Of a stretch of 39,739 nt of DNA, positions 18,912 to 39,607 are shown one piece after another. The stretch's first letter is position 1; every line of letters begins with the position of its first letter. The notes under the pieces are model-generated. The model saw only the letters and a program-made list of their open reading frames with translations. It was not told where the DNA came from and did no database searches. This DNA is from Acidocella sp. GTDB lineage: Bacteria; Pseudomonadota; Alphaproteobacteria; Acetobacterales; Acetobacteraceae. Position numbers and translations under genes: made by a program. The stretch covers positions 1 through 39,739 of the forward strand of contig NZ_JABEVC010000096.1 of assembly GCF_013044125.1 (NCBI RefSeq), read 5' to 3'.

Positions 18912-19371
18912 GTTAGCGTTTCCTAAGGTAGAATTCATTGTCTTGTAAGTCAGGGAAAGCGGGCTGCCGGTCCATTCGGGAGCTTCAGTTAGGCTCGGCC
19001 ATGACGTGCATCAGCGGTCTGAGTTCCAGCGATACCCAACGGGTGCTGAGCCTGCGCGGCAGCTTTTGGCAATCTTCCAGTGGTGCATTCCTTGCCGCTT
19101 GCCCCGCAACAATTCCAGCGCCCAAAGTGCGCGCGCCAAAAAACTTCCTGCCACCCTAAATCTCCACTTAAAAATAATGGAATCTGGTTCCAAAATGGAA
19201 TAATGTTCGTATTTTGTCAATGGTCGCGTTGGTGATGTGGGTCTCGCGCATGGGGGGAGCGCACAGATCAGGCAGGTGACGCCACAGCAGCCCGGCCGGC
19301 GGTGTGTGTGATAACTTCACGGGGGAGGCGATTTGCTCTCTTCCCTGGATGTGTGGGATGGAATCGTTGTC
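18912..19371. other. Divergent regulatory region, acyl-CoA dehydrogenase / IclR
   Basis: This 460-base stretch carries no gene I can support; short open frames here on both strands have no ribosome-binding site or recognisable motif. It is expected to hold both divergent promoters and contains an IclR-like palindrome at 19178-19192. The part 19000-19140 has gene-like GC content, and could be the remains of a decayed gene. Confidence 0.5.
19178..19192. promoter_or_regulatory. Candidate IclR-type operator
   Basis: The sequence TGGAA-TCTGG-TTCCA is a perfect 5-bp inverted repeat with a 5-bp spacer. It fits the outer positions of the E. coli IclR consensus TGGAAATNATTTCCA. A further tggaa half-site follows at 19196-19200. 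It lies in the gap between the acyl-CoA dehydrogenase gene and the divergent IclR-family gene, so it is well placed to control both. Confidence 0.55.
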
Positions 19372-22320: not shown

Positions 22321-22335
22321 GGTTCTGCTCCTGGT

Positions 22336-22785
22336 TCAGGCGGTGGGCCGGCGCGGAATCATCAGCCGGTGCTCGCCCGTCTGCACGATCTCGCCATGCT
22401 GGTTGATGAGATCGGAGGGCAGGGTGAGAATGCCCCAGCCTGGGCGCTTCGCCTCGCGCTTGGTGCCGACACGGAATTTCACATGCACCGTATCGCCGAG
22501 CTTGATCGGCAGCTTGAATGCCCATTCCCAGCCAAGCGACATGCCTGGTACAAAGCGGTAGCCGGCGCGGGTCTTCAGCCCGTCGGCCAGAGAGAGGCCG
22601 AGCAGCCCGTGCGCCACGCGCGTGCCGAAGGGAGTGGTTTTGGCGTATTCCTCGTCCATATGCACCGGGGTGAAATCTCCGGTGAGCTCCGCATAGGCAT
22701 TCACCATCGCTTCTGTCACGGTCACGCCTGGGGTGGTGCATTGCGTGCCGGGGATGGCGTCGTCCCAATAAAGGTCTTCGGTCAT
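22336..22785 (-). CDS. MaoC-like (hotdog) dehydratase
   Basis: This hotdog-fold protein of the R-hydratase group (149 aa from ATG 22785, AAGGA ten bases upstream) would hydrate an enoyl-CoA or dehydrate a 3-hydroxyacyl-CoA. The hydratase-2 motif is present as YAELTGDFTPVHMDEEYAKTTPFG with catalytic Asp37 and His42; the usual Asn between them is Thr. An in-frame ATG at 22803 overlaps the upstream stop codon as ATGA and is an alternative start. It lies between the VOC and CaiB-type genes in one operon, consistent with CoA-ester chemistry. Confidence 0.88.
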   Translation of the reverse strand: MTEDLYWDDAIPGTQCTTPGVTVTEAMVNAYAELTGDFTPVHMDEEYAKTTPFGTRVAHGLLGLSLADGLKTRAGYRFVPGMSLGWEWAFKLPIKLGDTVHVKFRVGTKREAKRPGWGILTLPSDLINQHGEIVQTGEHRLMIPRRPTA

Positions 22786-22799
22786 TGTTGTTTCTTCCT

Positions 22800-23180
22800 T
22801 CATGCGCGCGGGATCACGGCGAGGGCGGCGGCAACCGCCCCGGGACGTTCTTCCTGTAGAATTTCTACCTCCAGCCCGCCGGGCAGGCGCAGCCAGTTCG
22901 GCCCGCGGGGCAAGGCCGTGACGCCCCAGGCTTTCGCCGCTTCCAGCACCGCCGCCTGGTCCTCGACAAAGATGCCAAGATGCATGAGCCGCCCTTCGGA
23001 GCCGGTGAAGTCTGGGTCCTCGGCCAGTTGCAAGCCGCCCAGGGTCCAGGCCTGGCGTGGCAGTTGGCCCGATGCGGGGATCTCCTCGCGGAGAGTCATG
23101 CCCAGCACTTCGCCAAAAAACCGGATGTGCCAGTCAATATCGGCGACTTTCAAAGCCACATGTTCCAGATAGGCGCGCAT
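22800..23180 (-). CDS. VOC-family (glyoxalase/dioxygenase superfamily) protein
   Basis: This is a small vicinal-oxygen-chelate fold protein, 126 aa from ATG 23180, which has GGAGG seven bases upstream. Two beta-alpha-beta-beta-beta modules are visible: LEHVALKVADIDWHIRFFGEVLGMTLREE and LMHLGIFVEDQAAVLEAAKAWGVTALPRGPNWLRLPGGLEVEILQEERP. Likely metal ligands are His7, His67 and Glu106. Family members include glyoxalase I, methylmalonyl-CoA epimerase and dioxygenases; an epimerase or isomerase on a CoA ester would fit the operon, but the reaction cannot be assigned. Confidence 0.82.
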   Translation of the reverse strand: MRAYLEHVALKVADIDWHIRFFGEVLGMTLREEIPASGQLPRQAWTLGGLQLAEDPDFTGSEGRLMHLGIFVEDQAAVLEAAKAWGVTALPRGPNWLRLPGGLEVEILQEERPGAVAAALAVIPRA

Positions 23181-23193
23181 GTTTGTTCCTCCT

Positions 23194-24135
23194 TCAGGCT
23201 TTGCCGGGATAATCGGTGCGGGCGAGTTCGATGCCTTTGACGCAGGCGGCCAGCGTGGCATTCACCGGCGTCGGCACGCCGGCGGCTTTGCCCCAGCGCA
23301 GCACGGCGCCGTGAATGAAGTCGATTTCGGTTTTCTGCCCCTTCTCCAGGCTTTGCAGCATCGAGGTCTTGAATTGCGGCGGCAGACCGGCGCGGGCTTT
23401 TTCCCAGGCTTCACGCGGCTCCGTAACCGAGAGCGCCACGCCATGGGCCCTCGCTACGTCCATGGCTTCGGCAATGGCCGCGAGGGCGGTTTCCTCCAGC
23501 GCGGGCAGGCTGTAGAGCCCGCCGTAGGTCAGGCGCGTGATGGCCGTGAGCGCGCCGCCGGCGACGTTCACCAGCAGCTTGTCCCACATCGTGCCCATGA
23601 TGTTGGACGAGACATGGGTGAGCAAACCGCCGGCATTCAGAACCTCGGCAATATCGCGCACGCGCTGTGTGGTTGTGCCGTCAAGCTCGCCGATGATCGT
23701 CTCCTTGCCTGCGATGCCTGCCCGTACCCGCCCCGGCGCGAGCCATACGCCCCCGACATAGGTTTTTGCGCCCAGCACCTGCGCCCGCCCGGCTACATCG
23801 GCGAGGATATCCTCATGCCCAAGCCCGTTTTGCAGGGACATCACCACCGTCTCCGGCCCGAGCAAGGTGCGGGCGGACTCGATCGCCGCCCGGGTGTCGA
23901 AGGATTTGACCAGGATGATGACGAGATCGGCAATACCGATCCCCTCGATCCGGCTGCGTGCCTGCACTACCACGCGGGTGGATACATCGCCCTCCAGCAG
24001 CTCCAGCCCGCGTTGGTTGATCGCTTCGATATGCGCGCGATTGCGGCCGGCGAGCCAGACATCCGCGCCGCCTCGGGCCAGTGCGCCAGCGATCGTGGAG
24101 CCCAGCGCTCCCGCGCCGATAATGCAGATTTTCAT
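23194..24135 (-). CDS. 2-Dehydropantoate 2-reductase-family oxidoreductase
   Basis: This is a 313-aa NAD(P)-dependent reductase of the ketopantoate reductase (PanE/ApbA) family, started at ATG 24135 with AGGAA about seven bases upstream. The Rossmann motif is MKICIIGAGALGSTIAGALARGG; SLQNGLGHED and MWDKLLVNVAGGALTAI carry the conserved Asn and catalytic Lys. It is the first gene of a five-gene operon with VOC, MaoC, CaiB and AroE genes, so a catabolic hydroxy-acid/keto-acid oxidoreductase role is more likely than pantothenate synthesis. The promoter lies in the 93-base divergent gap with the LysR gene. Confidence 0.88.
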   Translation of the reverse strand: MKICIIGAGALGSTIAGALARGGADVWLAGRNRAHIEAINQRGLELLEGDVSTRVVVQARSRIEGIGIADLVIILVKSFDTRAAIESARTLLGPETVVMSLQNGLGHEDILADVAGRAQVLGAKTYVGGVWLAPGRVRAGIAGKETIIGELDGTTTQRVRDIAEVLNAGGLLTHVSSNIMGTMWDKLLVNVAGGALTAITRLTYGGLYSLPALEETALAAIAEAMDVARAHGVALSVTEPREAWEKARAGLPPQFKTSMLQSLEKGQKTEIDFIHGAVLRWGKAAGVPTPVNATLAACVKGIELARTDYPGKA

Positions 24136-24178
24136 GCCGTTTCCTTGAATGACGGCGTGCGTTCTAGCGTTGAATGAA

Positions 24179-25210: not shown

Positions 25211-27076
25211 TTAATAGTGGCCTTGTTGGCGCAGGTTCGCCATCGCCGCGAGGCGAATCGGGGCGTTGTTCGCGCCGTAGCCCTGGTAGCCGTTGCGCTG
25301 CAGGAGTTCGAAGAAAAAGCGGCCGGAGAAATTCGGGGTGTAGGTATGCCGGAAATCTCCCTGTGCATCCGCGTCGTAGAGAATGCCGAGTTGTTCAAAT
25401 TTTGCCAGGGTCGCGCGATCAAGGCCAAAGCGAGCCCCGAGGTCTTCGTAATAATTGGCAGGAATTGGTAAGACCGGTATCCCGGCGGCGATGGCTTTTT
25501 GCGTTGCCGATATAATGTCCGGTGTGGCAAAGGCGACGTGATGCACGCCCGACCCGGCGGCTTGATTCACAAACAGGGACGTCTCCGTTGCGGGACTTTC
25601 GGAGATGTTGAGGGGTATCCGAATGGTTCCCGCCGTGTTCTTCATGGTACGCGAGCGGATCAGGCCGAAGCGATCGGCAAATTCGATTGTGGCCTCGGGA
25701 ATAAGGCCAAACAGGGTACGATAAAAAAGCACAAATCTATCCAGTGATCCCGGACTAAGAGCCTGGGTGATGTGGTCAATTTTAAGCGGCGTGCCGGGTT
25801 GGGTTCCGGTGAGCGGGAACAGCTCGAAATCCTGACGCCACATCCCGGCGGCGGCGGCGGGCTCTACGAGGTAGAGCAAGGAGCCGTTTGGCTCACGCAC
25901 GGCGGGAATGCGGTGTTCTCCGGGGCCGGTGCGTTCGGTCCAGGTTGGCGAGAGCAGAGCGGCTGCACGAGCCAGAGCGGGCGCGACCTGATCCACCTTG
26001 AGGGCAAGCGCGCAAACCGAAGGGCCGTGCAACGCAAAATGCTCCGAGGCGGCGCTATCGGGCTCGGCGTTGAGCACGATGTTCACCTCGCTTTGGCGAT
26101 ATAGGCTAACAGCTTTGGAGCGGTGGCGCCCGGCAAGGCGAAAGCCGAGCCGGCCGAGAACGATGGCGAGCTGCTCGGCGGCCTCATTGTCCACGGCAAA
26201 TTCGATGAACTCAAAGCCGTCTAGCGCTGGCGGTGGCGGCAGGTAGGTGCGCCCGGCCTCGGACTCAATCCAGATGAGTGAACGTAAACCGTCCAGAGCA
26301 AGGGGGCGGGGAGGGCTGGCGCGGAACTCGTTGTTAAAAATTTTCAGGCCGAGCGGCCCTTCATACCCGGCGCGCAGCGCGTCCCGCAAAAAGCCGATAA
26401 CGTCCAGGTCTCCTTGGCCAGGAAAATTGCGGTAATGCCGGCTCCAGGTGGCAATATCCAGGGTGAGGCGTGGTGCGTCGGCCAGTTGCAGGGAGAAAAT
26501 TTTATCCCCGGGAACGTCCTCGATCCCGGCCAGACTGCCGCCCGGTGCCAGGGTATGGAAGCTATCGAGGGCTAGCCCCAGGGCCGGGAGATTGACGGCT
26601 TTGACGATATCCCAGGCTTGCCGCCAGGATTTGACGTGACGCCCCCAGGCCAGGGCCTGATAGGCAATTTTGAGGCCCCGCTGCCCAGCGCGCTCGGCGA
26701 GCTGGGATAGGTCCGCCGCAGCGCGCGAGGGGTCACCCACCGCCGCTTCTTGGATGTTACTATATAAAAGGAGTTGCCTGGCCCCTAGTTCCGCCATGAC
26801 GTCGAATTTGCCTTCCGCACGGGCCAAATTCCGCGTCAGCGTAGCCTGATCCATACATTCGAAGTCCCGGAAGGGTTGGAGACTTAAGATACTGAGGCCG
26901 AGATCGCTGGCCAAATGGGCAACGTCCCGGGGCGTCCCATCGAAGCTCAGAAGGTCGGTCTCAAAAATTTCAACAGCATCGAACCCCGCCGCCGCCGCCG
27001 CTTCCAGCTTGTCAGGCAATGTTCCGCTGAGTGAGACCGTGGCGATGGATTTCTGCAGCGGGCTGAGAATGTTCAC
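25211..27076 (-). CDS. QuiC-type fusion: 3-dehydroshikimate-dehydratase-like domain + HPPD-like domain
   Basis: This 621-aa protein starts at GTG 27076, which has AGGAGG eight bases upstream. Residues 1-275 form a sugar-phosphate-isomerase-like TIM barrel; residues 285-621 are a 4-hydroxyphenylpyruvate-dioxygenase-like region. The arrangement matches QuiC1-type 3-dehydroshikimate dehydratases, which make protocatechuate from quinate or shikimate. The HPPD part keeps the 2-His-1-Glu iron ligands (His435, His513, Glu590) and the C-terminal FFFELLQRNGYQGYGANNAPIRL block. In the barrel, Asp171 and Gln197 are present, but the two Glu ligands expected in YEALAWG and LEIFND are Gln140 (YQALAWG) and Lys245 (LKIFNN). 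The dehydratase domain may therefore be weak, inactive or altered. It is divergent from the second AroE gene. Confidence 0.88.
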   Translation of the reverse strand: MNILSPLQKSIATVSLSGTLPDKLEAAAAAGFDAVEIFETDLLSFDGTPRDVAHLASDLGLSILSLQPFRDFECMDQATLTRNLARAEGKFDVMAELGARQLLLYSNIQEAAVGDPSRAAADLSQLAERAGQRGLKIAYQALAWGRHVKSWRQAWDIVKAVNLPALGLALDSFHTLAPGGSLAGIEDVPGDKIFSLQLADAPRLTLDIATWSRHYRNFPGQGDLDVIGFLRDALRAGYEGPLGLKIFNNEFRASPPRPLALDGLRSLIWIESEAGRTYLPPPPALDGFEFIEFAVDNEAAEQLAIVLGRLGFRLAGRHRSKAVSLYRQSEVNIVLNAEPDSAASEHFALHGPSVCALALKVDQVAPALARAAALLSPTWTERTGPGEHRIPAVREPNGSLLYLVEPAAAAGMWRQDFELFPLTGTQPGTPLKIDHITQALSPGSLDRFVLFYRTLFGLIPEATIEFADRFGLIRSRTMKNTAGTIRIPLNISESPATETSLFVNQAAGSGVHHVAFATPDIISATQKAIAAGIPVLPIPANYYEDLGARFGLDRATLAKFEQLGILYDADAQGDFRHTYTPNFSGRFFFELLQRNGYQGYGANNAPIRLAAMANLRQQGHY

Positions 27077-27272
27077 AGCTTGAGCCTCCTGATGTCTGGG
27101 GCGGATATGACAAAAATTAATAGCCGAAGATATTGCCCCTTGCAACGTACCAAAAAGTTAGTTAGTAAAGTGCCCGTAAAATGATAATTGGAACGCCCAC
27201 AAGTTGATGTTAACCTTGGCACTCTTTGTTGCAGTGCGGCATTTTGCTTAAAGATTACGAAAAGAGAGGCTG
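27077..27272. promoter_or_regulatory. Divergent promoter region, QuiC-type fusion / NAD-type aroE
   Basis: This 196-base AT-rich gap between two divergent genes must hold both promoters. Short repeated elements are visible (ttgcaac; ccaaaaagttagttagt), but I found no perfect operator palindrome. A sigma-54-like tggcac..ttgca at 27217-27233 has the wrong spacing and is not accepted. Confidence 0.4.
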
Positions 27273-28166
27273 ATGGCTCATATGAACGTCCCAAATCGTG
27301 ATGAGAAAACCCAGTCTATGAGCTTAGCTAATTCTGTACTTGTTGGTTTAATTGGGGAAGGGATTGGGCCGTCGCGCTCCCCCTTCATGCATGAAACCGA
27401 AGCCGCGGCGCTGGGGATCAAGCTGATCTATCGGCTGATCGACCTGCCGGTGCTGGGTCTCGATGTGAGTTCGCTTGAAGTCCTGCTGCACGCGGCGGAA
27501 TTGATGGGTTTCTCCGGCGTCAATGTCACGCATCCCTGCAAGCAGGCGGTTATCCCTTTGTTGGACGGTCTCTCTGATGAAGCGCGTGCGCTGGGAGCGG
27601 TTAACACGGTGCTGTTCCGTGAAGGTAAGCGGATGGGCCATAACACGGATTGGTTTGGTTTTGCCGAGGCTTTCCGTCTACGTATGCCGGGCGCATCGCT
27701 GGAGCGGGTGGTACAGCTGGGCGCCGGGGGAGCTGGTGCTGCGGTAGCGTACGCCATACTGAAAATGGGCGCAAAGCATATCGTGATTGTTGATGTTGAT
27801 CCTCAGCGTGCCGATGATGTGGTTCAAAAGTTTTCGGCCTTATTTGGCGCGGATCGAATTTCTGGCGCGGCATCCGCGGCGGAGGCGCTCATCGGCGCAA
27901 CCGGATTGATTAATGCAACACCAATCGGCATGGCGGCGCATCCGGGCCTGCCGCTTGACAGCGCCTTGCTGCGCCCGGATTTGTGGGTCGCCGAGGTTGT
28001 TTATTTTCCCCTGGAAACCGCATTGTTGAAAGCCGCGCGTGAAATTGGCTGCCGCACGGTGGACGGCGGCGGCATGGCGGTCTTCCAAGCGGCTGAAGCT
28101 TTCCGTTTGTTTACAGGAATCGTCCCGGATGCAGCCAGAATGCTGGCAAACTTCGCGGCGGAATAA
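27273..28166 (+). CDS. Shikimate/quinate dehydrogenase family protein (NAD-type)
   Basis: This 297-aa AroE-family dehydrogenase shows IGEGIGPSRSPFMHETEA at the substrate loop, catalytic Lys90 in NVTHPCK, Asn111 in AVNTV, catalytic Asp126 in GHNTD, and the nucleotide loop GAGGAG (150-155). After the second strand it reads IVIVDVDPQRAD, with Asp in place of the NRT motif, pointing to NAD+ rather than NADP+. NAD preference and the SRSPFMHE form fit catabolic quinate/shikimate dehydrogenases. It is divergent from the QuiC-type gene and followed by a porin and an MFS permease, so oxidation of imported shikimate or quinate is the most economical reading. The first ATG (27273) has AGAGG close upstream; ATGs at 27282 and 27318 are alternatives. 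Confidence 0.9.
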   Translation: MAHMNVPNRDEKTQSMSLANSVLVGLIGEGIGPSRSPFMHETEAAALGIKLIYRLIDLPVLGLDVSSLEVLLHAAELMGFSGVNVTHPCKQAVIPLLDGLSDEARALGAVNTVLFREGKRMGHNTDWFGFAEAFRLRMPGASLERVVQLGAGGAGAAVAYAILKMGAKHIVIVDVDPQRADDVVQKFSALFGADRISGAASAAEALIGATGLINATPIGMAAHPGLPLDSALLRPDLWVAEVVYFPLETALLKAAREIGCRTVDGGGMAVFQAAEAFRLFTGIVPDAARMLANFAAE

Positions 28167-28306: not shown

Positions 28307-29635
28307 ATGAATAAACTCAAGCAGTCGGCAACTCGTCTGGGATTGAAGGCAACATTATTGGCGGGCGGCGCCTTGTTTGCCGTTGCCGCGACAGCACACG
28401 CGCAATCAGGGGCCTCTCCGGCTTCGACCAATTTTTTTACCCGGCCGCTTATGACGGGTAACTGGAACGGCGCGCGGACAAAGCTCGAAGATACCGGAAT
28501 CACCTTTAATGGATTCTACGTAGGTGAATATGCCAACGGGGTCTCTGGCGGAAATCGCCAGGGCGGCGATTTCGCCGCGCAGTTCGGTCTTGGTATGGAT
28601 GTCGATCTCGGCAAGCTGGCAGGGCTGGAGGGCGCCAGTCTGCATTTCGCGGTCAACCAGCGCGTCGGCCGCAACACCTCGGCGGACTATATCGGCAACC
28701 GCCTTGCCGTGCAGGAAGTCTATGGCGCCGGCGAGACGCTGCGCATCGTGGAAATGAGCTATGAGCAGAAGTTCGATGATGGCGCTTTCGATACGAAAAT
28801 CGGCTTCTACCCAATGGGCAACGATTTTGCCGGAACCCCGCTGCTGCTGGATTTCCAGAACGTCGGTTTTTGTATCCATCCGCAGAACCTTCCGGCTTCC
28901 AGCGGCTGGTCTGATTATCCCACCGGCAAGTGGGGCGGGCGTATCAAATGGATGCCCACAACCAATTCTTACATCCAGGCCGGTGTGTACGACGTCAACC
29001 CAGGCTATTACGCCAAGGAAAACGGCATGAAGGTGAGCACCTCGGGCTCCACCGGCGCGCTGATCCCGGTCGAGGTCGAGTACACATCAGCTCTCGGCGC
29101 TGCCGGACTGCCGGGTCACTATAAGGCGGGCGTGTATTACGATACTTCGACCGTCAAAAATGCCGCCGATGTCACCGCTACGCAAAATGCCATGGAAACC
29201 GGCCGTTACGGTGGCTACCTGCTGGCGGATCAGATGATCTACAGTTTCGATGGCACACCAAAGCGCGGCCTGATTGCCTTCGCCCAGGTTTCCTATTCCG
29301 ATCCGCAGACCTCGGTGTATGAAAGCACCCTGGCCGGTGGCGTCGTCGCGCAGGGGCCGTTTGCCTCTCGTCCGAATGACTTCATTGCACTCGGTTATGT
29401 GCGCGCGGGGCTCAACAACCGGACGATCAACGCGAAGGAGCTCGCCTCACGCGGTACATTGTCGGGGCTGTCAAATGGTGAAGGCGTCGTCGAACTCGGC
29501 TATGGCCTGAAAGCGACGCCCTGGCTGCTAATTCATCCGAATGTGCAGTACATCACCGATCCGGGCACGTTCTCCTACAACAAGCACATGAAAAATGCTT
29601 GGGCGATTGGCCTGCAAACCAAGGTCTTCTTCTAG
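28307..29635 (+). CDS. Carbohydrate porin, OprB family
   Basis: This 442-aa outer-membrane porin has a signal peptide (LKATLLAGGALFAVAATAHA, cleavage after AHA) and GGGAG nine bases upstream of the ATG. OprB-type features are LMTGNWNGARTKLEDTGITFNGFYVGEYANGVSGG near the N-terminus, ETLRIVEMSYEQKF, and the C-terminal PWLLIHPNVQYITDPG..NAWAIGLQTKVFF ending in Phe. OprB porins admit sugars and similar polar molecules. The position between the NAD-type AroE gene and an MFS permease gene suggests entry of the same substrate. It is probably co-transcribed with the AroE gene, from which it is separated by 140 bases. Confidence 0.9.
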   Translation: MNKLKQSATRLGLKATLLAGGALFAVAATAHAQSGASPASTNFFTRPLMTGNWNGARTKLEDTGITFNGFYVGEYANGVSGGNRQGGDFAAQFGLGMDVDLGKLAGLEGASLHFAVNQRVGRNTSADYIGNRLAVQEVYGAGETLRIVEMSYEQKFDDGAFDTKIGFYPMGNDFAGTPLLLDFQNVGFCIHPQNLPASSGWSDYPTGKWGGRIKWMPTTNSYIQAGVYDVNPGYYAKENGMKVSTSGSTGALIPVEVEYTSALGAAGLPGHYKAGVYYDTSTVKNAADVTATQNAMETGRYGGYLLADQMIYSFDGTPKRGLIAFAQVSYSDPQTSVYESTLAGGVVAQGPFASRPNDFIALGYVRAGLNNRTINAKELASRGTLSGLSNGEGVVELGYGLKATPWLLIHPNVQYITDPGTFSYNKHMKNAWAIGLQTKVFF

Positions 29636-29678: not shown

Positions 29679-29747
29679 TAATGCGGCGAGTGTGTTCAAA
29701 CATGACAACTCAGTTGTTTGCAGAATATCGCGAGGGAGAAATTTAAA

Positions 29748-31061
29748 ATGAATTCGACGACAACCGCTTCCACGTTATCCAGAGCGGGGGCAAAACCCCG
29801 GACAAGGGCACGCTTTGCCGTCCTGGCGCTAATCGCCGTTGTGACAATGGTAAATTATCTTGATCGTTCAGTGCTCGGCTTGGCCGCGCCAGCGATGGCG
29901 AAAGATCTTGGGTTTGCAGCGAGCAGTCTTGGGTTGATCTTCTCGGCCTTCGCATGGACGTATACCGCGAGTCAGATTCCGGGCGGTGTGTTTTTGGACC
30001 GGTTCGGAACCAAACTTACCTATGGACTCGCCATCATTGTCTGGTCCGCGATCACCTTCGCGCAGAGCATGGTTGGCGGCATGGGTGCCTTGCTCGCTTG
30101 CCGCTTTGGCCTTGGTGTTGCCGAAGCGCCTTGCTTTCCGACCAACGGCCGCATCGTGGGTATATGGTTTCCGCAGAAAGAGCGCGCGCGGGCAACCAGT
30201 ATTTATACAGTTGGGGAATATGTGGGTCTTGCATTCCTGAGCCCGATTCTTCTGTGGATTATGCACGTATGGAGCTGGCACGTATTATTCCTTGTTGTTG
30301 GCAGCTTTGGTATTTTGCTCGGCATTGTCCTGCTGGTCGCCTATCGCAACCCGCAAGAGAGCAAATGGGCCAATCAGGAAGAGCTGGATTACATCGAAGC
30401 GGGTGGCGGTCTTCAGCCGGTTAATGCCGACGCGACGGCTTTCTCTTGGAGTAATGTCCGTAAGCTGCTGGGGTACCGGCAGGTCTGGGGCGCATCCATC
30501 GGACAGTTTGCCGGCAACGCAACATTAGTGTTTTTCCTGACCTGGTTCCCGACTTACCTGGTGCAGGCGCGTGGCATGGGGTGGGTTAAGGAAGGCTTCT
30601 TCGTGGTGCTTCCATTTGCTGCGGGGGCGGTCGGTGTGCTTGTTGGCGGCGCTCTGTCGGATAAGTTGCTTAGCTGGACTGGCTCGGTGAATATTTCGCG
30701 AAAGACACCGATCATTGCCGGGCTATTGCTTGCTTCGACGATCATTACCGCTAACTACGTTAATAGTAATGCGATGGTGATTGCGATTCTGTCTCTTGCC
30801 TTTTTTGGCCAAGGAATGGTTGGGCTGGGCTGGACCGTTATTTCTGACATCGCACCGAAAAATCTAATGGGCCTTACGGGAGGCATCTTCAACGCAATGA
30901 CCAATCTCGCAGGTATCGTCACCCCGTTGGCCATTGGATACATTGTTGCTGAAACACATTCGTTTGCTGGAGCCTTGTCCTTTGTCGGTGTCGTCGCATT
31001 GATTGGCGTATTTTCGTACATCTTCGTTCTCGGTGATATTAAACGTATCAACTTGGATTAG
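29748..31061 (+). CDS. MFS transporter, anion:cation symporter (ACS) type
   Basis: This inner-membrane importer is 437 aa from ATG 29748, which has GAGGGAG upstream. Twelve hydrophobic segments are visible. Early motifs are VNYLDRSVLGLAAPAMAKDLGF and the motif A-like GGVFLDRFGTKLTYG; RFGLGVAEAPCFPTNGRIVGIWFPQKERARATSIYTVGEYVGLAFLSPI is diagnostic of the ACS subfamily that carries organic anions such as hexuronates, galactonate and aromatic acids. With the porin and AroE genes next to it, a quinate/shikimate-type acid is a reasonable substrate guess. It is followed by a strong hairpin. Confidence 0.92.
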   Translation: MNSTTTASTLSRAGAKPRTRARFAVLALIAVVTMVNYLDRSVLGLAAPAMAKDLGFAASSLGLIFSAFAWTYTASQIPGGVFLDRFGTKLTYGLAIIVWSAITFAQSMVGGMGALLACRFGLGVAEAPCFPTNGRIVGIWFPQKERARATSIYTVGEYVGLAFLSPILLWIMHVWSWHVLFLVVGSFGILLGIVLLVAYRNPQESKWANQEELDYIEAGGGLQPVNADATAFSWSNVRKLLGYRQVWGASIGQFAGNATLVFFLTWFPTYLVQARGMGWVKEGFFVVLPFAAGAVGVLVGGALSDKLLSWTGSVNISRKTPIIAGLLLASTIITANYVNSNAMVIAILSLAFFGQGMVGLGWTVISDIAPKNLMGLTGGIFNAMTNLAGIVTPLAIGYIVAETHSFAGALSFVGVVALIGVFSYIFVLGDIKRINLD

Positions 31062-31346: not shown

Positions 31347-32177
31347 ATGACAATTCAGTATTCCTTGGCCCACTTAACCGTGCTTGGGTGTCCGACGCCA
31401 GAAATGGTTTATATCGCGGCGCGAGCAAGCTACGATTATGTTAGCCCGCGGCTTATTTATATGGGGCTTCCGGGAGAGCCAAACTATGCGCTGGCGGATA
31501 ATCCAGCAATGCTGCGGCAGACCAAACGTGCGCTGAGCGAGACGGGGGTTAAGGTGCATGACATAGAATTGGCACGGATATATGACGATATGCACCCGAC
31601 AAAATATCTGCCCGCCATGGAGGTTGCGGCGGAACTTGGCGCCAAGGCAGTGTTGTCGAGCATCTGGACCGAGAACATTAATTACGCGAAAGAAAAATAT
31701 GCAAAGATTTGTGAGCTCGCGCAACCTTTTGGCTTAACCGTTGATCTTGAGTATGTGCCGATATCAAGCATAAACAATCTTGCAAAAGCAGTGGATGTTC
31801 TGCGTGCAGCAAAACAAAAAAATTCAGGACTTTTGATAGATATGCACCATTTTCATCGTGCGGGGGACAGGGTAGAGGACCTGGACCTTCTTCCGCGTGA
31901 ATGGTTTCACTTCATACATTTATGCGATGCTAGCGCGGAGGTACCACGGGATCGTGCCGAGATGACCCGCATCTTGCGTGAGGAGCGGCTATATGTTGGT
32001 GATGGTGGGATTGATGTGGCAGATATCTTGCGGCATATCCCAACAAAAATTTATTCTATTGAACTGCCGAACCTCGCCCAAGCCAAGGCGATTGGTTACG
32101 CGGAGCATGCGTTCCGCTGTATCGAATCAGCAAAGCGATATATCGCAAAACATGGTCTCGAAAACAATTCACATTAA
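31347..32177 (+). CDS. Sugar phosphate isomerase/epimerase-family TIM barrel (AP-endonuclease-2 fold)
   Basis: This 276-aa metal-dependent TIM-barrel protein belongs to the xylose-isomerase-like superfamily, which includes IolE, IolI, hydroxypyruvate isomerase and QuiC/AsbF-type 3-dehydroshikimate dehydratases. The four expected metal ligands are all present: Glu135 (VDLEYVP), Asp165 (LLIDMHH), His191 (FIHLCDA) and Glu239 (YSIELPN). The usual GEGxxD loop reads VGDGGIDV. It is the first gene of the AT-rich cluster and is followed 71 bases later by a CaiB/BaiF gene. Dehydratase or isomerase action on a cyclitol acid or keto-sugar is inferred. It could supply the activity apparently lost from the QuiC-type fusion. 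Confidence 0.85.
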   Translation: MTIQYSLAHLTVLGCPTPEMVYIAARASYDYVSPRLIYMGLPGEPNYALADNPAMLRQTKRALSETGVKVHDIELARIYDDMHPTKYLPAMEVAAELGAKAVLSSIWTENINYAKEKYAKICELAQPFGLTVDLEYVPISSINNLAKAVDVLRAAKQKNSGLLIDMHHFHRAGDRVEDLDLLPREWFHFIHLCDASAEVPRDRAEMTRILREERLYVGDGGIDVADILRHIPTKIYSIELPNLAQAKAIGYAEHAFRCIESAKRYIAKHGLENNSH

Positions 32178-32248
32178 GATCTGCTCTGCATTCCGCAGTT
32201 GGATGCCACGGCGGCTGTTCATGAAGAAACAAAATGGAGGCAACAACT

Positions 32249-33451
32249 ATGCCAAGTGCACTTAAGGGGATCCGGGTATTAGATCTGACCAATGTCCTGG
32301 CAGGACCGTTTTGTGCATACCAATTGGCGCTTCTTGGTGCCGAAGTAATCAAGGTCGAAGTGCCTGGCCTTGGCGATCTGGCACGCCAATTAGGTGCTGA
32401 TGCTGATCTGAATGCGCGAAAAATGGGATCTTCATTTCTTTCTCAAAATGGTGGAAAGAAGTCAATTACGATAAATTTGAAATCCAAAGAGGGCCGGGAG
32501 GTACTACTGCGCTTGGTGGCATCGGCTGATGTGCTTGTGGAAAATTTTCGTCCCACCGTTATGGAACGCCTCGGTTTAGGCTATAATAAGCTTAAAGCGG
32601 TTAATCCGCGGCTTGTCTATTGCGCGATTTCAGGGTTCGGCCAGGATGGCCCGATGCAGAGCTCGCCGGCCTACGACCAAATTATCCAGGGGCTGTCTGG
32701 TGTCATGAGCATCACAGGTGATGCGCGGTCGGCGCCTCAGCGCGTTGGCTATCCCGTAGCGGACACGATAGGAGGCATTACGGCTGCCTTTGCGATAGCG
32801 GCTGCACTGGTGAGACAAGTGCGTTCTAGTGAAGGTGACTTCATCGACGTGTCGATGCTGGACTCAACCATTGTGACAATGGGGTGGGTCATATCAAATT
32901 TTCTCATCGCAGGAAAAGAGCCAAAGCCAATGGGGAATGAAAATTTTACAGCTGCTCCTTCTGGTACGTTCCGTACTGGCCATGGGCTTATCAATATTGC
33001 CGCAAACAAGCAGGAACAGTTTGAGGCTTTGGCGAAGATCATTGGGCGCGAAGACATAATTTCAGATCCAAGGTTTTCCGAGAGAGAAACAAGGAAAGTA
33101 AACCGAACGGCGTTAACGGTTGAGATTGAGCAGGCCCTGAGTAAAAAAACGGCTGTAGAGTGGGAAGATATTCTCTCGTCAAATAACATTCCAGCCGGCC
33201 GGGTACTTACCGTGCCTGAGGCACTTGCGCATCCACAAGTAGGTCACCGGCACTTGCTCGCCCATTTCGATACTGTGCCCGGGGTAGACCGTCCTATTGA
33301 CGTAGTGCGAACAGGATTTAAAATGTCAAGCGGTGACCCTGATGTTACAATACCGCCACCACAACTCGGTGAGCATTGCAACGATATTCTCGCTGGTATT
33401 GGATATTCACATGAAGAAATAAAGCATTTGCGGGAGGTAAAGGCAATCTAA
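32249..33451 (+). CDS. CaiB/BaiF-family CoA-transferase (second copy)
   Basis: This 400-aa class III CoA-transferase starts at ATG 32249 with GGAGG eight bases upstream (an ATG at 32234 is in frame but overlaps that site). Motifs: LKGIRVLDLTNVLAGPFCAYQLALLGAEVIKVEVP, DVLVENFRPTVMERLGLGYNKLKAVNPRLVYCAISGFGQDGP, catalytic Asp172 in YPVADTIGGI, and SSNNIPAGRVLTVPEALAHPQV. It is clearly different from the copy at 21088 and has AT-richer codon use, so it is not a recent local duplication. It probably makes or uses a CoA ester in the same pathway as the flanking isomerase and ThDP enzyme. Confidence 0.92.
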   Translation: MPSALKGIRVLDLTNVLAGPFCAYQLALLGAEVIKVEVPGLGDLARQLGADADLNARKMGSSFLSQNGGKKSITINLKSKEGREVLLRLVASADVLVENFRPTVMERLGLGYNKLKAVNPRLVYCAISGFGQDGPMQSSPAYDQIIQGLSGVMSITGDARSAPQRVGYPVADTIGGITAAFAIAAALVRQVRSSEGDFIDVSMLDSTIVTMGWVISNFLIAGKEPKPMGNENFTAAPSGTFRTGHGLINIAANKQEQFEALAKIIGREDIISDPRFSERETRKVNRTALTVEIEQALSKKTAVEWEDILSSNNIPAGRVLTVPEALAHPQVGHRHLLAHFDTVPGVDRPIDVVRTGFKMSSGDPDVTIPPPQLGEHCNDILAGIGYSHEEIKHLREVKAI

Positions 33452-33636: not shown

Positions 33637-35397
33637 ATGAAGAAGCTTATTTCACATCAGCTTGTGAACTACCTCGAAGAACGCGGAGTTGAACATATTT
33701 TCGGACTTTGCGGTCACACCAATATCGCTGTGCTGTCCGCTTTGGAAAATAGCAAGATTCGATTCATTAATACACGTCATGAACAGATCGCCGCGCATAT
33801 AGCCGATGGCTATGCACGTGCGAAAAAGCGGACTGCAGTTCTTCTGAGTCATCTTGGTCCGGGCCTGACAAACGCCGCGACAGGGGTCGCCAATGCGGCA
33901 CTAGATTCCATTCCGATGGTTGTTATCGCGGGAGACGTACCAAGTCATTATTTTGGTAAGCATCCTCATCAGGAAATAAATCTTCATGCAGATGCGTCGC
34001 AATGGGAGGTCTATCGTCCATTCGTAAAGCGGGCATGGAGGGTCGATCGTCCGGATCTCTTCCCGGAAATTCTCGAGAAGGCGTTTCAGCTCGCAGAAAG
34101 TGGCCGGCCGGGGCCGGTTCTTGTGTCAGTGCCGATGGATATTTTTTCCATGGAGGTTGACGTATCTTTGTTCGATCGTCAAAAAAGCCATACGCGGGCG
34201 CTAAATAAGCCGTCCATTGGTGATGACACAGCACGCAACATAATTAAAGCATTGTTGGATGCAAAAAATCCTGTGATCTATGCCGGTGGCGGAGTTATTC
34301 TTGCTGATGCCGCAGCAGAACTTAAAGCAATGGTTGATCATTTGAATATTCCAGTCGCCCATTCCCTGATGGGCAAGGGCGTTTTGCCAGATGATCATGA
34401 TTTTACGCTTGGAATGACTGGTTTCTGGGGGACGCAATTTGTAAATGATCAATGCTTGAAGGCAGATGTGGTTTTTGGTCTTGGGACTCGATTTGCTGAA
34501 GCAGATTGTAGTTCGTGGGAGTCAGAATACACCTTCAATATTCCCGGAACTAAACTGATTCATATCGATATAGATCCGTCTGAGATCGGTAGAAACTATC
34601 CGGTGTTGATTGGCGCGGTGGCGGACCTCAAGCAGGCGCTAATTGTATTAAATCGGGTGGCGCGCGAAATGCTGCCGCAGGGGCGAAAGAATGATGCTCT
34701 GCGTCAAGAGATTGCGGCGTACCGGAGGGAGTTCGTTGCGGGCAATCAAAAAGCCGTTAACGACGACAGCTTTCCGATGATGCCAGAGCGAATTCTCTCG
34801 GTAACGCGTAATGCATTGCCCAGGAATGCCTTTATTACAACTGATGTTGGATGGAACAAAAACGGTGTTGGGCAACAATTTCCGGTCTATGAGCCTGGCT
34901 CGATTTTGACGCCGGGTGGCTACGCCACGATGGGGTTCGGTGCGCCGGCTGCTCTTGGTGCGAAGCTGGCCTGTCCTGATCGTGTTGTCGTGTCACTCGT
35001 TGGTGATGGTGGCTTTGGCCAGAATCCCGCATTATTAGCGACAGCAGTAGAAGAAAATATTGCGGTTGTTTGGATTGTGATGAACAACTATTCATTCGGC
35101 ACAATCGCCGGATTGGAAAAAGCGCATTATGGTACGACATTCGGCACCATGTTCCGAAAGGACGGGAAGCCTTATCAAGCGGATTTCGCGGCTGTTGCAC
35201 GTGCCTATGGCGCCGAAGGCGTTCAAGTGAAGTCGGCTGAAGAATTCTCGGATATTCTTGAACGGGCAATAAAATCGAACAAGCCGTTTGTTATCGATGT
35301 TGCCATGCGTAATAATCCTGTGCCGACGTCAGGGCATTGGAACATTCTCGACATCTATTCACCGCAGGGGAATGTTTCACATGTCAGTGTTGAGTAA
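33637..35397 (+). CDS. Thiamine-diphosphate-dependent enzyme, acetolactate-synthase-like
   Basis: This 586-aa ThDP enzyme has the three-domain layout of the acetolactate synthase/pyruvate oxidase group: PYR domain (1-170) with catalytic Glu49 in NTRHEQIAAHIADGYAR; central domain (about 195-335, DAKNPVIYAGGGVILADAAAELKAMVDHLNIPVAHSLMGKG); and PP domain (about 385-545) with the ThDP motif from GDG (456-458) to NN (483-484). No acetolactate synthase small subunit gene is nearby, so a biosynthetic role is unlikely. Related enzymes include IolD, which opens a cyclic diketone in inositol breakdown, and sulfoacetaldehyde acetyltransferase. With an isomerase-type gene and a Gfo/Idh gene alongside, carboligation or C-C cleavage in a catabolic pathway is inferred; the substrate is unknown. 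Confidence 0.88.
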   Translation: MKKLISHQLVNYLEERGVEHIFGLCGHTNIAVLSALENSKIRFINTRHEQIAAHIADGYARAKKRTAVLLSHLGPGLTNAATGVANAALDSIPMVVIAGDVPSHYFGKHPHQEINLHADASQWEVYRPFVKRAWRVDRPDLFPEILEKAFQLAESGRPGPVLVSVPMDIFSMEVDVSLFDRQKSHTRALNKPSIGDDTARNIIKALLDAKNPVIYAGGGVILADAAAELKAMVDHLNIPVAHSLMGKGVLPDDHDFTLGMTGFWGTQFVNDQCLKADVVFGLGTRFAEADCSSWESEYTFNIPGTKLIHIDIDPSEIGRNYPVLIGAVADLKQALIVLNRVAREMLPQGRKNDALRQEIAAYRREFVAGNQKAVNDDSFPMMPERILSVTRNALPRNAFITTDVGWNKNGVGQQFPVYEPGSILTPGGYATMGFGAPAALGAKLACPDRVVVSLVGDGGFGQNPALLATAVEENIAVVWIVMNNYSFGTIAGLEKAHYGTTFGTMFRKDGKPYQADFAAVARAYGAEGVQVKSAEEFSDILERAIKSNKPFVIDVAMRNNPVPTSGHWNILDIYSPQGNVSHVSVE

Positions 35398-35485: not shown

Positions 35486-35587
35486 TTCACAATATAAACG
35501 TTGATCTTTCTCAAATCATCGCACTTGTTCTTCTTAGAAGAGAAGGTCTTATGTCTCAGTCATAAACCAAACATAGAGAATGGATTC

Positions 35588-36643
35588 ATGGCGTATCGGA
35601 AAGCTAAAATCGCAGTAGCGGGAGCGGGATATATCGGCCAGGCGCACATTGCAGTTATCCAAGCCAGCCCTAATGCCGAGCTATCGGCGATTGTTGATCC
35701 CACTGAAAACGCCAAAATTTTGGCTAACAGCGCTGGCGTAGCATATTATCCATCTCTCGAAGCGTTGTTATCTGATGTGAGTCCAGATGGACTGGTTTTG
35801 GCGACGCCAAATCAACTTCATGTGGTTCAATCGTTGCAGTGTTTAGCATCAGGTGTTCCAATTCTTTTAGAAAAACCGATTGCTACGACTGTTGCTGAGG
35901 GGGAAAACTTGGTTAGGGCGGTTGCTGAAACCGGCGGAAAAATTTTGGTTGGACATCACCGTGCGCATAGCCCGATTATGGCAAAAGCCAGGCAGGTTGT
36001 GGAATCTGGTCAGCTTGGCCGGCTTGTGGCGGTTATGGGCAGCGCGATGTTTTATAAGCCAGACCATTATTATGAAGATGCACCATGGAGACGGGAGATT
36101 GGTGGTGGGCCAATTTTACTTAACATGATTCACGAAATTCATAATTTGCGTATGCTGTGCGGCGATATTATCGCGGTTCAAGCATTCGCCAGCAATGCGG
36201 TAAGGCGTTTCTCTGTTGAAGATACTGTTGCGATTAACTTGCGTTTTAGCAGTGGTGTTTTAGGTACTTTTCTTTTGTCTGATACGGCTGCGTCTGCGCA
36301 CAGTTGGGAGCTGACATCTCAGGAGAATAAGGCTTACCCAACTTATAACGATGAGGATTGCTACGTTATCTCAGGCACGAAAGGAAGTTTGTCCGTGCCG
36401 ACTATGCGCCTTAAGACCTACCCTAGGAATGAAGATCGTTCCTGGTGGAAAGAGTTTGAGGTAGGCAAGGTTGGCCTCGTACGCGACGACCCGTTAAAAC
36501 ATCAAATTGAGCATTTTGTAAAAGTGATACATGGTGAAGCGCTGCCATTGGTTAGCGCATTAGATGGGCTTTTAAACTTGCGTGTTACAATGGCTATTGA
36601 TGAGGCAGCCCGGACGGGCAAGATTGTAAATGTTGAGACATAA
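35588..36643 (+). CDS. Gfo/Idh/MocA-family NAD(P)-dependent oxidoreductase
   Basis: This 351-aa dehydrogenase is taken from ATG 35588; the open frame upstream to 35501 has no family features. The Rossmann motif is KIAVAGAGYIGQAH, and the catalytic-region motif EKP is at residues 95-97 (ILLEKPIATT). The second domain has GGGPILLNMIHEIHNLRMLCGD with His182 at the catalytic His position; the Asp that often precedes it by four residues is Leu here. Family members oxidise sugars, inositols and related polyols. It lies between the ThDP enzyme and the dehydroquinate-dehydratase-like gene (24 bases apart), suggesting oxidation of a cyclitol or sugar-acid substrate. Confidence 0.9.
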   Translation: MAYRKAKIAVAGAGYIGQAHIAVIQASPNAELSAIVDPTENAKILANSAGVAYYPSLEALLSDVSPDGLVLATPNQLHVVQSLQCLASGVPILLEKPIATTVAEGENLVRAVAETGGKILVGHHRAHSPIMAKARQVVESGQLGRLVAVMGSAMFYKPDHYYEDAPWRREIGGGPILLNMIHEIHNLRMLCGDIIAVQAFASNAVRRFSVEDTVAINLRFSSGVLGTFLLSDTAASAHSWELTSQENKAYPTYNDEDCYVISGTKGSLSVPTMRLKTYPRNEDRSWWKEFEVGKVGLVRDDPLKHQIEHFVKVIHGEALPLVSALDGLLNLRVTMAIDEAARTGKIVNVET

Positions 36644-37425: not shown

Positions 37426-38649
37426 TTGAAGCTGCGCCGCCGGCATCTGCTGGGAAGTGTCGCTGGTGGGGCTGCGGTTTCGGCGCTTGCAATGCCGCAT
37501 GTTGCTCGCGCGGTAGAGCCAATTCGGATTGGCCTGCTGGAAGCTAAGCAGGGTCCGATTGCTGAACAGTCGCAGTATCTCCAGCGGGGCACGTTTCTCG
37601 CCATGGAGCAGATGGGCAACGAATTACTCGGCCGCCCAGCTGAGATTATTTGGGACGATGAGCCGTCGGCCCAGGCGGCTGGACAGAATGCGTTGCAATT
37701 GATTCAGCAGAATAAAGTGGTGGCGATGTTGGGCGGTGCACTCAGCAACTTCGCTCTTGCGGAAGAAGCCATCGCGGGTCAGTATAAGGTTCCGTTCCTC
37801 ATCAACAATGGTGCGGCTGAAGAAATTACAGGAACCAAGTGCAATCCGTATACTTTTCGGTTGCAGTCGCCAGTGCCGGTGCAGGCGGCGGCGATGCTGC
37901 CATATCTCGAAAATATCGGTAAGCGGTGGTATTTCCTTTCGGCTTCTTATGCGTATGGTCAGGATATCGTCAACAACTTTAAGTCGTTACTGAAAGGTAT
38001 CGGCGGAACTATTGTTGGTGACGATCAGGTTCCGGTGGGAACGTCCGATTATAGTGCATATATTCTTAAAATCCGCGAGGCGCAGCCTGACCTGGTTATT
38101 GGTGGCCTGACGTCGGGAGATTTGTCGAGTTTTCTGAAGCAGTGGAAGGACTTCGGGATGAGCGGCAAGATTCCCTTCACTGAGATTGGTGTGGGTGACC
38201 CTGATCTCTGGGCTGTTGGTAAGGATAATATTGCCGGTATTTATACGACGATGTGGTGGTATAAAGATCCGAATAATTCCCCGGCGGACAAGGCCTTCGC
38301 TGCGGCCTATGAGAAAAAGTATAATGCTCCCGCGGCAGATAAGGCATGGATGGGGTGGTATTCTGCGCGGATTATGTTCGAGTCCATTAACAAAGCCAAT
38401 TCAACAAACCCTGACGCAATCGTAGAAGCATTGTACAACTGGTCTGAACTGGATGGTGGCATTAATGTACATTTTGATCGCTGGGATAACCAGTTGATCC
38501 ACCGGTTGCTCGTTGTCGGGATTAAGAAGCATATCCCGAACCAGTGGGATTATTTTGATGTTCTTCAGTCTGTTCCGAGCAACGATGCCGAGGCTGCTGT
38601 AGCCTTTGGAACGCAGGCTCAAAGCGCCTGCCATATGACACCGCTGTAA
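37426..38649 (+). CDS. Branched-chain-type ABC transporter, substrate-binding protein (start uncertain)
   Basis: This periplasmic binding protein of the LivK/urea-amide type is 407 aa if started at TTG 37426, which has only a weak AGG upstream. It carries a twin-arginine-like signal (LRRRHLLGSVAGGAAVSALAMPHVARA). The mature part shows EPIRIGLLEAKQGPIAEQSQYLQRGTFLAMEQMG, VVAMLGGALSNFALAEEAIAGQYKVPFLINNGAAEEITG and a typical two-lobe pattern (PDLVIGGLTSGDLSSFLKQWKDFGM). The better placed ATG at 37396 is followed at once by TAA in frame, so translation must use the TTG or reinitiate, or else the gene is weakly expressed or newly mutated. LivH- and LivM-type permease genes follow. Ligand unknown; organic acids and aromatic or amide compounds are common for this class. 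Confidence 0.85.
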   Translation: MKLRRRHLLGSVAGGAAVSALAMPHVARAVEPIRIGLLEAKQGPIAEQSQYLQRGTFLAMEQMGNELLGRPAEIIWDDEPSAQAAGQNALQLIQQNKVVAMLGGALSNFALAEEAIAGQYKVPFLINNGAAEEITGTKCNPYTFRLQSPVPVQAAAMLPYLENIGKRWYFLSASYAYGQDIVNNFKSLLKGIGGTIVGDDQVPVGTSDYSAYILKIREAQPDLVIGGLTSGDLSSFLKQWKDFGMSGKIPFTEIGVGDPDLWAVGKDNIAGIYTTMWWYKDPNNSPADKAFAAAYEKKYNAPAADKAWMGWYSARIMFESINKANSTNPDAIVEALYNWSELDGGINVHFDRWDNQLIHRLLVVGIKKHIPNQWDYFDVLQSVPSNDAEAAVAFGTQAQSACHMTPL

Positions 38650-38737: not shown

Positions 38738-39607
38738 ATGTGGGACATGATGCTGCTTCAGATAGGCAATGGCATGGCACTTGGCTTTTTATATGTGCTT
38801 ATTGCTCTGGGCTTGTCGATTATTTTTGGTCTGCTGGGTATCGTTAATTTCGCGCATGGTGTCTTTTTTGCCCTCGGCGCCTATTTTTCGATAACGCTTT
38901 TTGGGGTGATGGGGTGGTGGGGCATACCTGTTGCCATTGCCCTGGTAGGCGTTATTGGCATGCTTACGGAGGTTGTATTGATCCGGAGGCTCTACGATAA
39001 AGATCCTCTTATCAGCTTGATCGTGACGTTTGCGTTCTCACTTTTGGCTGAGGCCATAATCCGTACATTGTGGGGCCCGGTTGGTCAGCCGTTTGATGCA
39101 CCGGATGCATTGAACGGTGTTTTGATCTGGGGGCCATTTGTTATTGCGACGTATCGACTCGCGGTAATGATTTTGGTTATCGTAATTCTGGCAGCGCTTT
39201 GGGCATTTTTGCAGTTCACACCGTTTGGACGGATTTTGCGCGCAGGTAGCCGTGATCCAGGAATGGTTGGTGTTTTGGGGATAAATTTACCCCATGTTTT
39301 AACGGGTACTTTTGGTTTGGGCTGTGTCCTGGCTGCGATTGCTGGATCTCTGGCAGCTCCGCTTTGGAGTGTGACCCCGAGCATGGGAGAGGCGGCGATT
39401 ATGCCTGCGTTTGTGATTGTGACAATTGGGGGGCTTGGCTCCTATGTTGGCGCGATTGTAGCAGGCTTGCTGGTCGGTTTAGTTCAGTCTTTAGCGGTCC
39501 AGTTTGTACCGGAGGCTTCCACGGCTGCTATGTATGTTCTGATGGCGTTGGTTTTGCTTGTCCGGCCGCGCGGCTTGTTTGGTGAACGGTGGGAGCGCTT
39601 TGAATGA
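38738..39607 (+). CDS. Branched-chain-type ABC transporter permease (LivH family)
   Basis: This 289-aa inner-membrane permease has AAAGGAG upstream of its ATG. The N-terminal pattern GMALGFLYVLIALGLSIIFGLLGIVNFAHGVFFALGAYF is the LivH hallmark. The loop FGRILRAGSRDPGMVGVLGINLPHV corresponds to the ATPase-docking region, and MPAFVIVTIGGLGSYVGAIVAGLLVGLVQSL is conserved near the C-terminus. The stop overlaps the next start as ATGA. ATPase genes would be expected beyond the window. Confidence 0.94.
   Translation: MWDMMLLQIGNGMALGFLYVLIALGLSIIFGLLGIVNFAHGVFFALGAYFSITLFGVMGWWGIPVAIALVGVIGMLTEVVLIRRLYDKDPLISLIVTFAFSLLAEAIIRTLWGPVGQPFDAPDALNGVLIWGPFVIATYRLAVMILVIVILAALWAFLQFTPFGRILRAGSRDPGMVGVLGINLPHVLTGTFGLGCVLAAIAGSLAAPLWSVTPSMGEAAIMPAFVIVTIGGLGSYVGAIVAGLLVGLVQSLAVQFVPEASTAAMYVLMALVLLVRPRGLFGERWERFE

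Follow-up and report, generated by a model that had tools for sequence, protein, structure and literature searches.

A stretch of 39,739 nucleotides from Acidocella sp. (contig NZ_JABEVC010000096.1), here called the window, contains a gene for a QuiC-like protein in which a xylose-isomerase-like TIM barrel is fused to a domain resembling 4-hydroxyphenylpyruvate dioxygenase (HPPD). The barrel of this fusion has lost two metal-binding glutamates, and comparison with related proteins strongly indicates that the N-terminal domain is no longer a metal-dependent 3-dehydroshikimate dehydratase. The iron site of the HPPD-like domain is intact. The same state recurs in fusions from genomes that share a set of genes marked by a thiamine pyrophosphate (TPP)-dependent enzyme. 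It is reasonably probable that the dehydratase is dead and that the HPPD-like iron domain has been kept for a route of quinate/shikimate degradation that avoids protocatechuate and ends at citryl-CoA, a route to which the observed gene content points.

A ribosome-binding site, AGGAGG, lies 8 bases upstream of the GTG start of the fusion gene, and residues are counted from that GTG. The positions given in the preliminary description hold on forward-strand numbering; the gene itself lies on the minus strand (Table 1). The closest solved structure is QuiC1 of Pseudomonas putida (5hmq), which has the same two-domain architecture, is 49-50% identical and aligns over residues 7-617 of the fusion, the first domain being ungapped. 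In this alignment glutamates of QuiC1 stand opposite Gln140 and Lys245, while Asp171 and Gln197 are the same in both proteins, just as had been described from the sequence of the window alone. Ten active-site residues are common to QuiC1 and the dehydratase QsuB (PMC7442255, excerpt). Transferred to window numbering at +6, they correspond to R70, L103, Gln140, L142, D171, H174, Q197, S212, R216 and Lys245. Eight of the ten are therefore kept, including all six of the other pocket residues (R64, L97, L136, H168, S206 and R210 in QuiC1), and the two lost are metal ligands: the E134/D165/Q191/E239 metal site of QuiC1 reads Q, D, Q, K in the fusion and departs from the ligand pattern of a dehydratase. 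In AsbF, Qa-4 and QsuB the metal is held by the equivalents of Glu, Asp and Glu (PMC9324987, excerpt). Because Gln140 and Lys245 replace metal-coordinating Glu residues, the fusion has lost two of the three acids conserved in these three dehydratase classes.

The fusion was compared with 80 named QuiC loci, 66 of which had at least 5 kb on both sides of QuiC. Three of these have broken sites: L059 and L061 (Steroidobacter) and L064 (an alphaproteobacterial metagenome-assembled genome). The remaining 77, a ligand-intact set, served solely to define conserved columns; the neighbourhood test described below was run on all 80. The fusion is altered at 5 of the 51 first-domain columns invariant in the 77 ligand-intact proteins (C105Y, E140Q, S243G, E245K and D249N) and at none of the 28 such columns of the HPPD-like domain. 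Its ligand codons are CAG and AAA, against GAG or GAA in 12 relatives examined, the exception being a Gly codon of L064; one or two base changes thus suffice for each replacement. The five changes fall in two regions of the gene, which makes a sequencing error unlikely, and the losses are not a stray mutation. No substitute glutamate is seen in the 5hmq alignment, and Gln or Lys was not met at position 140 or 245 in any of the 80 named loci, so neither of the observations that would have overturned the original proposal was made. Nine other QuiC fusions were found in Acidocella, all with E, D, Q, E, which leaves the window genome as the only one with a broken dehydratase site among ten QuiC-bearing Acidocella genomes. 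It contains no second QuiC at E 0.001. The NCBIfam model NF042435 gave the fusion a score of 713.8 (criterion 1200); scores of 556-760 were obtained for four non-cluster relatives with intact ligands, so the cut-off does not set them apart from the fusion.

The 2-His-1-Glu triad typical of HPPD (His435, His513 and Glu590) is intact in the multiple alignment, as had been claimed. Bacterial HPPD (1CJX, 9QMF) has the same triad and is 31-33% identical to the HPPD-like domain (TMt 0.83-0.89), but the domain of the fusion is joined to a barrel. Its score against TIGR01263 (HPPD) is 173.1, and it is not classed as HPPD itself because the cut-off of 277 is not reached. A predicted model of the fusion (34 rows) had a mean predicted local distance difference test (pLDDT) value of 91.8 and a predicted template modelling score (pTM) of 0.91, and superposed on 5hmq with a template modelling (TM) score of 0.90-0.91 over about 629 columns. 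The fusion is probably active as a dioxygenase of the HPPD-like type. Six actinobacterial loci seemed to lack Glu590 in pairwise alignments, but this loss disappeared in the multiple alignment. In two-domain dehydroshikimate dehydratases, the HPPD-like half is described as of unknown function or as structural (PMC7442255, PMC9324987, both excerpts). QsuB of Corynebacterium glutamicum belongs to the same class as the fusion, and the role of its HPPD-like domain is likewise open; it differs in having all ten dehydratase site residues and proven activity (PMC7442255, excerpt).

The broken site is associated with a particular gene neighbourhood. Among all 80 named loci, a TPP enzyme, a CoA-transferase and a citryl-CoA lyase at 50% identity or more were found only in L059 and L064, and in none of the 77 intact loci within the stretches examined; the L061 stretch ends before the position where the cluster could show. 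Beside QuiC, L059 and L064 carry relatives of the window CoA-transferase (63-65%) and TPP enzyme (72-73%). The TPP enzyme was further sought in a phylum sample of 398 genomes at E 1e-150 or less, where it occurred in five (the window's own included), and in a separate sample of 295 genomes of one family, f23, where it occurred in 18. This family is probably Rhodobacterales, an assignment based solely on the nearest named plasmid relatives of one f23 fusion, which are 48-49% identical. The 21 genomes with both a TPP enzyme (at least 64% identity) and a QuiC fusion are thus the window, L059, L064 and 18 of f23. In 20 of these 21 fusions at least two of the four dehydratase ligands are replaced, and in 20 of 21 the HPPD triad reads HHE, which supports the original suggestion, made from residues alone, that the first domain may be dead or changed and the HPPD-like domain the conserved activity. 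The dehydratase-site patterns differ from one cluster fusion to another (QDQK, QNQA, LNQG, EGHE, GNLE, ENHE and others), and five cluster barrels are gapped at pocket positions (L134, L162, L163, L164 and L255).

In the phylum sample, QuiC was matched at 1e-60 in 69 of the 398 genomes, all five TPP genomes among them, and the site is broken in all five. Of 67 further QuiC sequences examined from this sample, one (L255) is broken, and it comes from the TPP genome G157. The other 66, from 64 genomes without the TPP enzyme, keep their ligands, the sole change being Q197H in L223; one of them (L254) is partial, cut by the end of its stretch. A Fisher test of TPP enzyme against broken site gave 9e-8, or 5e-7 with L223 counted as broken, uncorrected for kinship, four of the five TPP genomes being of one family. 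Another of the 66, L256 (G432), is a 277-residue QuiC barrel without an HPPD-like domain, in which all ten site residues are kept. Seven non-cluster QuiC proteins (L202, L203, L210, L223, L242, L244 and L251) have Gln for the second HPPD histidine (H513) and keep the dehydratase metal site, apart from Q197H in L223. The two halves do not fail together: non-cluster proteins retain the dehydratase site and sometimes lose the iron site, and in cluster proteins it is nearly the other way round.

Repeated origins are suggested by a quick-search tree built from 94 rows of the HPPD-like domain. The cluster label changes six times on it, in the window, L064, L059, the main f23 clade, L152 and L153 (the last on a long branch of unsure place), and the starred branches force at least four changes; the broken state also needs six changes, with L223 counted as broken. 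The link between TPP cluster and broken site may thus have arisen up to six times. Domain conservation is reversed in the f23 fusions. Mean pairwise identity among 17 of them is 44.7% in the first domain and 61.9% in the HPPD-like domain, against 66.1% and 54.4% in 24 other, mostly alphaproteobacterial, rows and 86.5% and 81.8% in 46 actinobacterial rows; the groups differ in depth, so that only the order of the domains within each is meaningful. No such shift was found in the plain identity of the window fusion, which matches L029 at 77.0% and 78.3%; it is seen in the f23 fusions and at conserved columns. At columns invariant in eight Acidocella rows, the window fusion is changed at 19 of 171 in the first domain and 11 of 186 in the HPPD-like domain (11% and 6%), while the leave-one-out controls L035 and L036 change 4.5-5% of the first-domain columns and 6.5-8.8% of the HPPD-domain columns that are invariant in the remaining rows. 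Because these controls also change such columns, the family-wide column set alone was used as the main evidence.

Within this setting, the preferred explanation can be extended to an undescribed, aerobic and non-aromatizing pathway for quinate and shikimate, in which the HPPD-like domain would be a ring-cleaving dioxygenase for a hydroaromatic alpha-hydroxyketone, a TPP-dependent decarboxylase and an acylating dehydrogenase would lead to citryl-CoA, and recruited QuiC fusions would repeatedly lose the dehydratase. This fuller version is tentative, a possibility rather than a probability. The steps proposed for the preferred explanation are all read from genes, with established chemistry applied by inference. 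An AroE-type dehydrogenase would give the 3-keto acid, either dehydroquinate or dehydroshikimate that is then rehydrated to dehydroquinate. The HPPD-like domain, the only oxygenase recognized in the cluster, would use Fe(II) and O2 to cleave the C3-C4 alpha-hydroxyketone of 3-dehydroquinate, and a dehydrogenase would oxidize C5. The C1 of quinate bears OH, COOH and two CH2 groups, which is the citrate skeleton. Given these substituents, cleavage and C5 oxidation would yield 4-carboxy-4-hydroxy-2-oxoadipate. The TPP enzyme could decarboxylate this compound to citrate semialdehyde, from which an acylating aldehyde dehydrogenase (or an aldehyde dehydrogenase and the CoA-transferase) would form citryl-CoA, to be split by citryl-CoA lyase into acetyl-CoA and oxaloacetate. 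The same oxoadipate is the substrate of the last enzyme of the protocatechuate 4,5-cleavage pathway (PMC5065237, excerpt). The proposed route shares that intermediate, but would pass through no aromatic ring and would probably use TPP-dependent decarboxylation in place of the aldolase split. A hydrolytic, IolD-like reaction of the TPP enzyme on a cyclic dione was also considered and ranked lower, since it would leave seven carbons and no citryl-CoA; sequence matches do not discriminate between the two. No published account of this cluster, or of quinate degradation with citryl-CoA, was found in one open-access collection, as judged from titles and the beginnings of abstracts.

A working dehydratase would drain the substrate of this route to protocatechuate. 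Its loss would be expected after acquisition of the cluster, because protocatechuate is such a drain and the window genome has no intradiol dioxygenase (PF00775) and only two lower-scoring LigB-family proteins (117 and 110 bits, above the family cut-off). Among the nine Acidocella genomes with intact QuiC, PF00775 occurs in four and a LigB match above 200 bits in five, eight genomes in all. On its own, the absence of PF00775 is weak evidence: the closest relatives with an intact site, G009 (A. aquatica) and G015, are also without it and instead encode LigB proteins of about 270 bits, on the same contig as their intact QuiC.

The gene set in other genomes agrees with this route in part. TIM2, a second TIM barrel, lies adjacent to the acylating aldehyde dehydrogenase and the TPP enzyme in all 18 f23 genomes, and citryl-CoA lyase was found in 16 of the 18 (in the stretches examined); in G157 it lies beside QuiC on another contig. 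HMG-CoA lyase and citryl-CoA lyase act on the same type of bond, and the two f23 stretches without citryl-CoA lyase, L152 and L153, each have an HMG-CoA-lyase-like gene. In the window genome, citryl-CoA lyase (NF004864, 434.6 bits, cut-off 261) is encoded on a different contig (C179), together with two aldehyde dehydrogenases. On the plasmid of Azoarcus KH32C (L129), an AroE-type dehydrogenase and a type I dehydroquinate dehydratase stand beside the TPP enzyme. As a side observation, a Streptomyces plasmid (L130, L259) carries a TPP enzyme relative (51-52%), a CoA-transferase, a citryl-CoA lyase and AroE beside a pyrroloquinoline quinone (PQQ)-dependent dehydrogenase, the type of enzyme expected for quinate oxidation.

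Several observations weigh against the proposed link and route. The fusion of L152 comes from a TPP-cluster genome and has all four ligands intact, and L059 has Tyr for the first HPPD histidine. The gene set varies, with an AroE-type match in only 6 of the 18 f23 stretches and a CoA-transferase in none, and TIM2 was not found in the stretches of L059 or L064 examined. In Azoarcus KH32C the QuiC halves are separate genes, the HPPD-like triad is H-D-E, and the barrel reads E-D-Q-D with His168 replaced by Gln. In Nonomuraea, an intact QuiC is found 9 kb from a TPP relative of about 52% that is accompanied by lyase and CoA-transferase; around the Streptomyces relative of about 52%, no QuiC was found in the 48 kb examined. 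The broken-site rule is thus limited to TPP relatives of at least 64% identity and is not strict even there. The acylating dehydrogenase scored 472.6, below the SauS cut-off of 600. QsuB did not convert protocatechuate, a result with no bearing on another substrate (PMC7442255, excerpt). Strong LigB matches occur in G736 (Steroidobacter, L059; seven matches) and G377 (one, 227 bits), so that lack of a protocatechuate dioxygenase is not a general rule for the cluster, the ring-cleavage searches having covered PF00775 and LigB only. Finally, of four independent pairs on the tree, 2 to 4 (mean 3.5) showed the broken state going with cluster status and none showed the opposite, but the pairs are too few for the sign test to be significant (median p 0.25).

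A protocatechuate route would need the lost dehydratase, unless TIM2 replaces it. This is the main rival explanation, in which the dehydratase step has moved to TIM2, an AsbF-like E-D-H-E barrel, the HPPD-like domain acts on protocatechuate and the barrel of the fusion is redundant. TIM2 keeps E135, D165 and E239, the putative metal ligands, in all 20 sequences compared, that of the window among them, and it adjoins the TPP enzyme set throughout f23 and occurs in none of the 80 named QuiC loci; protocatechuate has also been proposed as a substrate of the HPPD-like domain (PMC7442255, excerpt). We nevertheless regard this explanation as unlikely. L059 and L064 are broken without a detected TIM2, TIM2 and the QuiC-type barrel of Azoarcus share about 21% identity over 173 residues, and redundancy leaves the loss alongside citryl-CoA lyase unexplained. 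Further, QsuB left protocatechuate unchanged (PMC7442255, excerpt). Ordinary decay of a fusion gene without use in this lineage, on its way to a pseudogene, could account for the changes at two ligands and at three further conserved residues and for the Acidocella-invariant columns altered in the first domain relative to the HPPD-like domain. It is improbable in view of the intact frame, the good ribosome-binding site, the unchanged family-invariant columns of the HPPD-like domain and the recurrence of this pattern in as many as six lineages. The ratio of nonsynonymous to synonymous substitution rates (dN/dS) against the two nearest relatives is 0.06-0.08 in both domains, although dS (1.7-2.3) is near saturation and the ratio mostly reflects older constraint. 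The gene is not visibly decaying.

Rather than being dead, the barrel might have acquired a new reaction, its metal site being altered or absent. All six of the other pocket residues of the window fusion are kept and its fold is predicted well, but the cluster proteins share no common replacement and five have pocket gaps, and this too we consider improbable. An HPPD-like domain serving solely as a structural or oligomerization module, as proposed for QsuB, which without this domain showed less oligomerization and a lower product yield in cells (PMC7442255, excerpt), seems very unlikely for the cluster fusions. A broken dehydratase leaves nothing to stabilize, yet the iron triad is kept in nearly all of them, and in the f23 fusions conservation is higher in the HPPD-like domain than in the barrel. 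The fusion differs from QuiC1 in the two replaced glutamates and in the TPP enzyme and citryl-CoA lyase of its genome, both members of the recurring set.

The genes around the fusion are listed in Table 1. The AroE-type dehydrogenase is a common QuiC neighbour, matched in 63 of the 80 named loci, and is not special to the TPP cluster. G+C content is 0.53 at 16-18 kb, 0.56-0.67 between 18 and 30 kb and 0.48-0.50 from 30 kb on, and no TPP enzyme was found in 40 other genomes searched, 24 of them of the same genus, the window genome being the sole carrier among 25 Acidocella genomes. The lower G+C from 30 kb and the absence of the enzyme from those 40 genomes suggest that the TPP-side DNA was imported. 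An apparent catabolic operon (20261-24138) adjoins the fusion, with a second AroE-type gene, a CoA-transferase and MaoC, VOC and PanE-like genes. Farther away, an acyl-CoA dehydrogenase (17742-18938; 79%) and an IclR regulator (19333-20187; 46%) resemble Azoarcus KH32C plasmid genes beside its TIM2 (L129, 33027-36248), which hints at a wider block common to the window and that plasmid.

Table 1. Features of the window, with positions on the forward strand
Feature	Position	Strand	Evidence or remark
QuiC-like two-domain fusion, 621 aa	25211..27076	-	stop-free frame; GTG start at 27076; 5hmq match E 2e-190; predicted fold
C-terminal HPPD-like domain, residues 283-605, with His435, His513, Glu590	25262..26230	-	PF14696, PF00903
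N-terminal TIM-barrel (dehydratase) domain, residues 7-275	26252..27058	-	PF01261; 5hmq alignment
Codon AAA, Lys245 (QuiC1 Glu239)	26342..26344	-	
Codon CAA, Gln197 (QuiC1 Gln191), kept	26486..26488	-	
Codon GAT, Asp171 (QuiC1 Asp165), kept	26564..26566	-	
Codon CAG, Gln140 (QuiC1 Glu134)	26657..26659	-	
Ribosome-binding site AGGAGG of the fusion gene	27085..27090	-	read directly
AroE-type shikimate/quinate dehydrogenase	27273..28166	+	NF009201 429 bits, cut-off 235; 74% to AroE beside intact QuiC in L030
OprB-family porin	28307..29635	+	PF04966; 81-88% to L030/L029
MFS transporter, nearest galactonate-transporter subfamily	29718..31061	+	PF07690; TIGR00893 388.8 bits, below cut-off 395
Second TIM barrel (TIM2)	31347..32177	+	PF01261; absent from 80 named QuiC loci
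CaiB/BaiF CoA-transferase	32234..33451	+	PF02515; 63-73% to L059, L064, L129; not found in 18 f23 stretches
TPP-dependent enzyme, acetolactate-synthase type, cluster marker	33637..35397	+	PF02775/00205/02776; 64-81% in 21 other genomes
Gfo/Idh/MocA dehydrogenase, likely cluster member	35501..36643	+	PF01408; ~40% relatives in several, not all, clusters
ABC substrate-binding protein, probable uptake	37426..38649	+	PF13458; homologues beside intact QuiC in L037, L038
ABC permease, probable uptake	38738..39607	+	PF02653; homologues beside intact QuiC in L037, L038

These fusions amount to a natural experiment in several lineages, in which the known half of the enzyme has been destroyed and the unknown half kept, nearly always with the same set of genes, and which predicts a substrate class and a product for the HPPD-like half. 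If the proposed route is correct, the name dehydroshikimate dehydratase would be wrong for these fusions, the long-unassigned HPPD-like half of QuiC enzymes would gain a function, and bacteria would have a new entry into central metabolism for plant acids.

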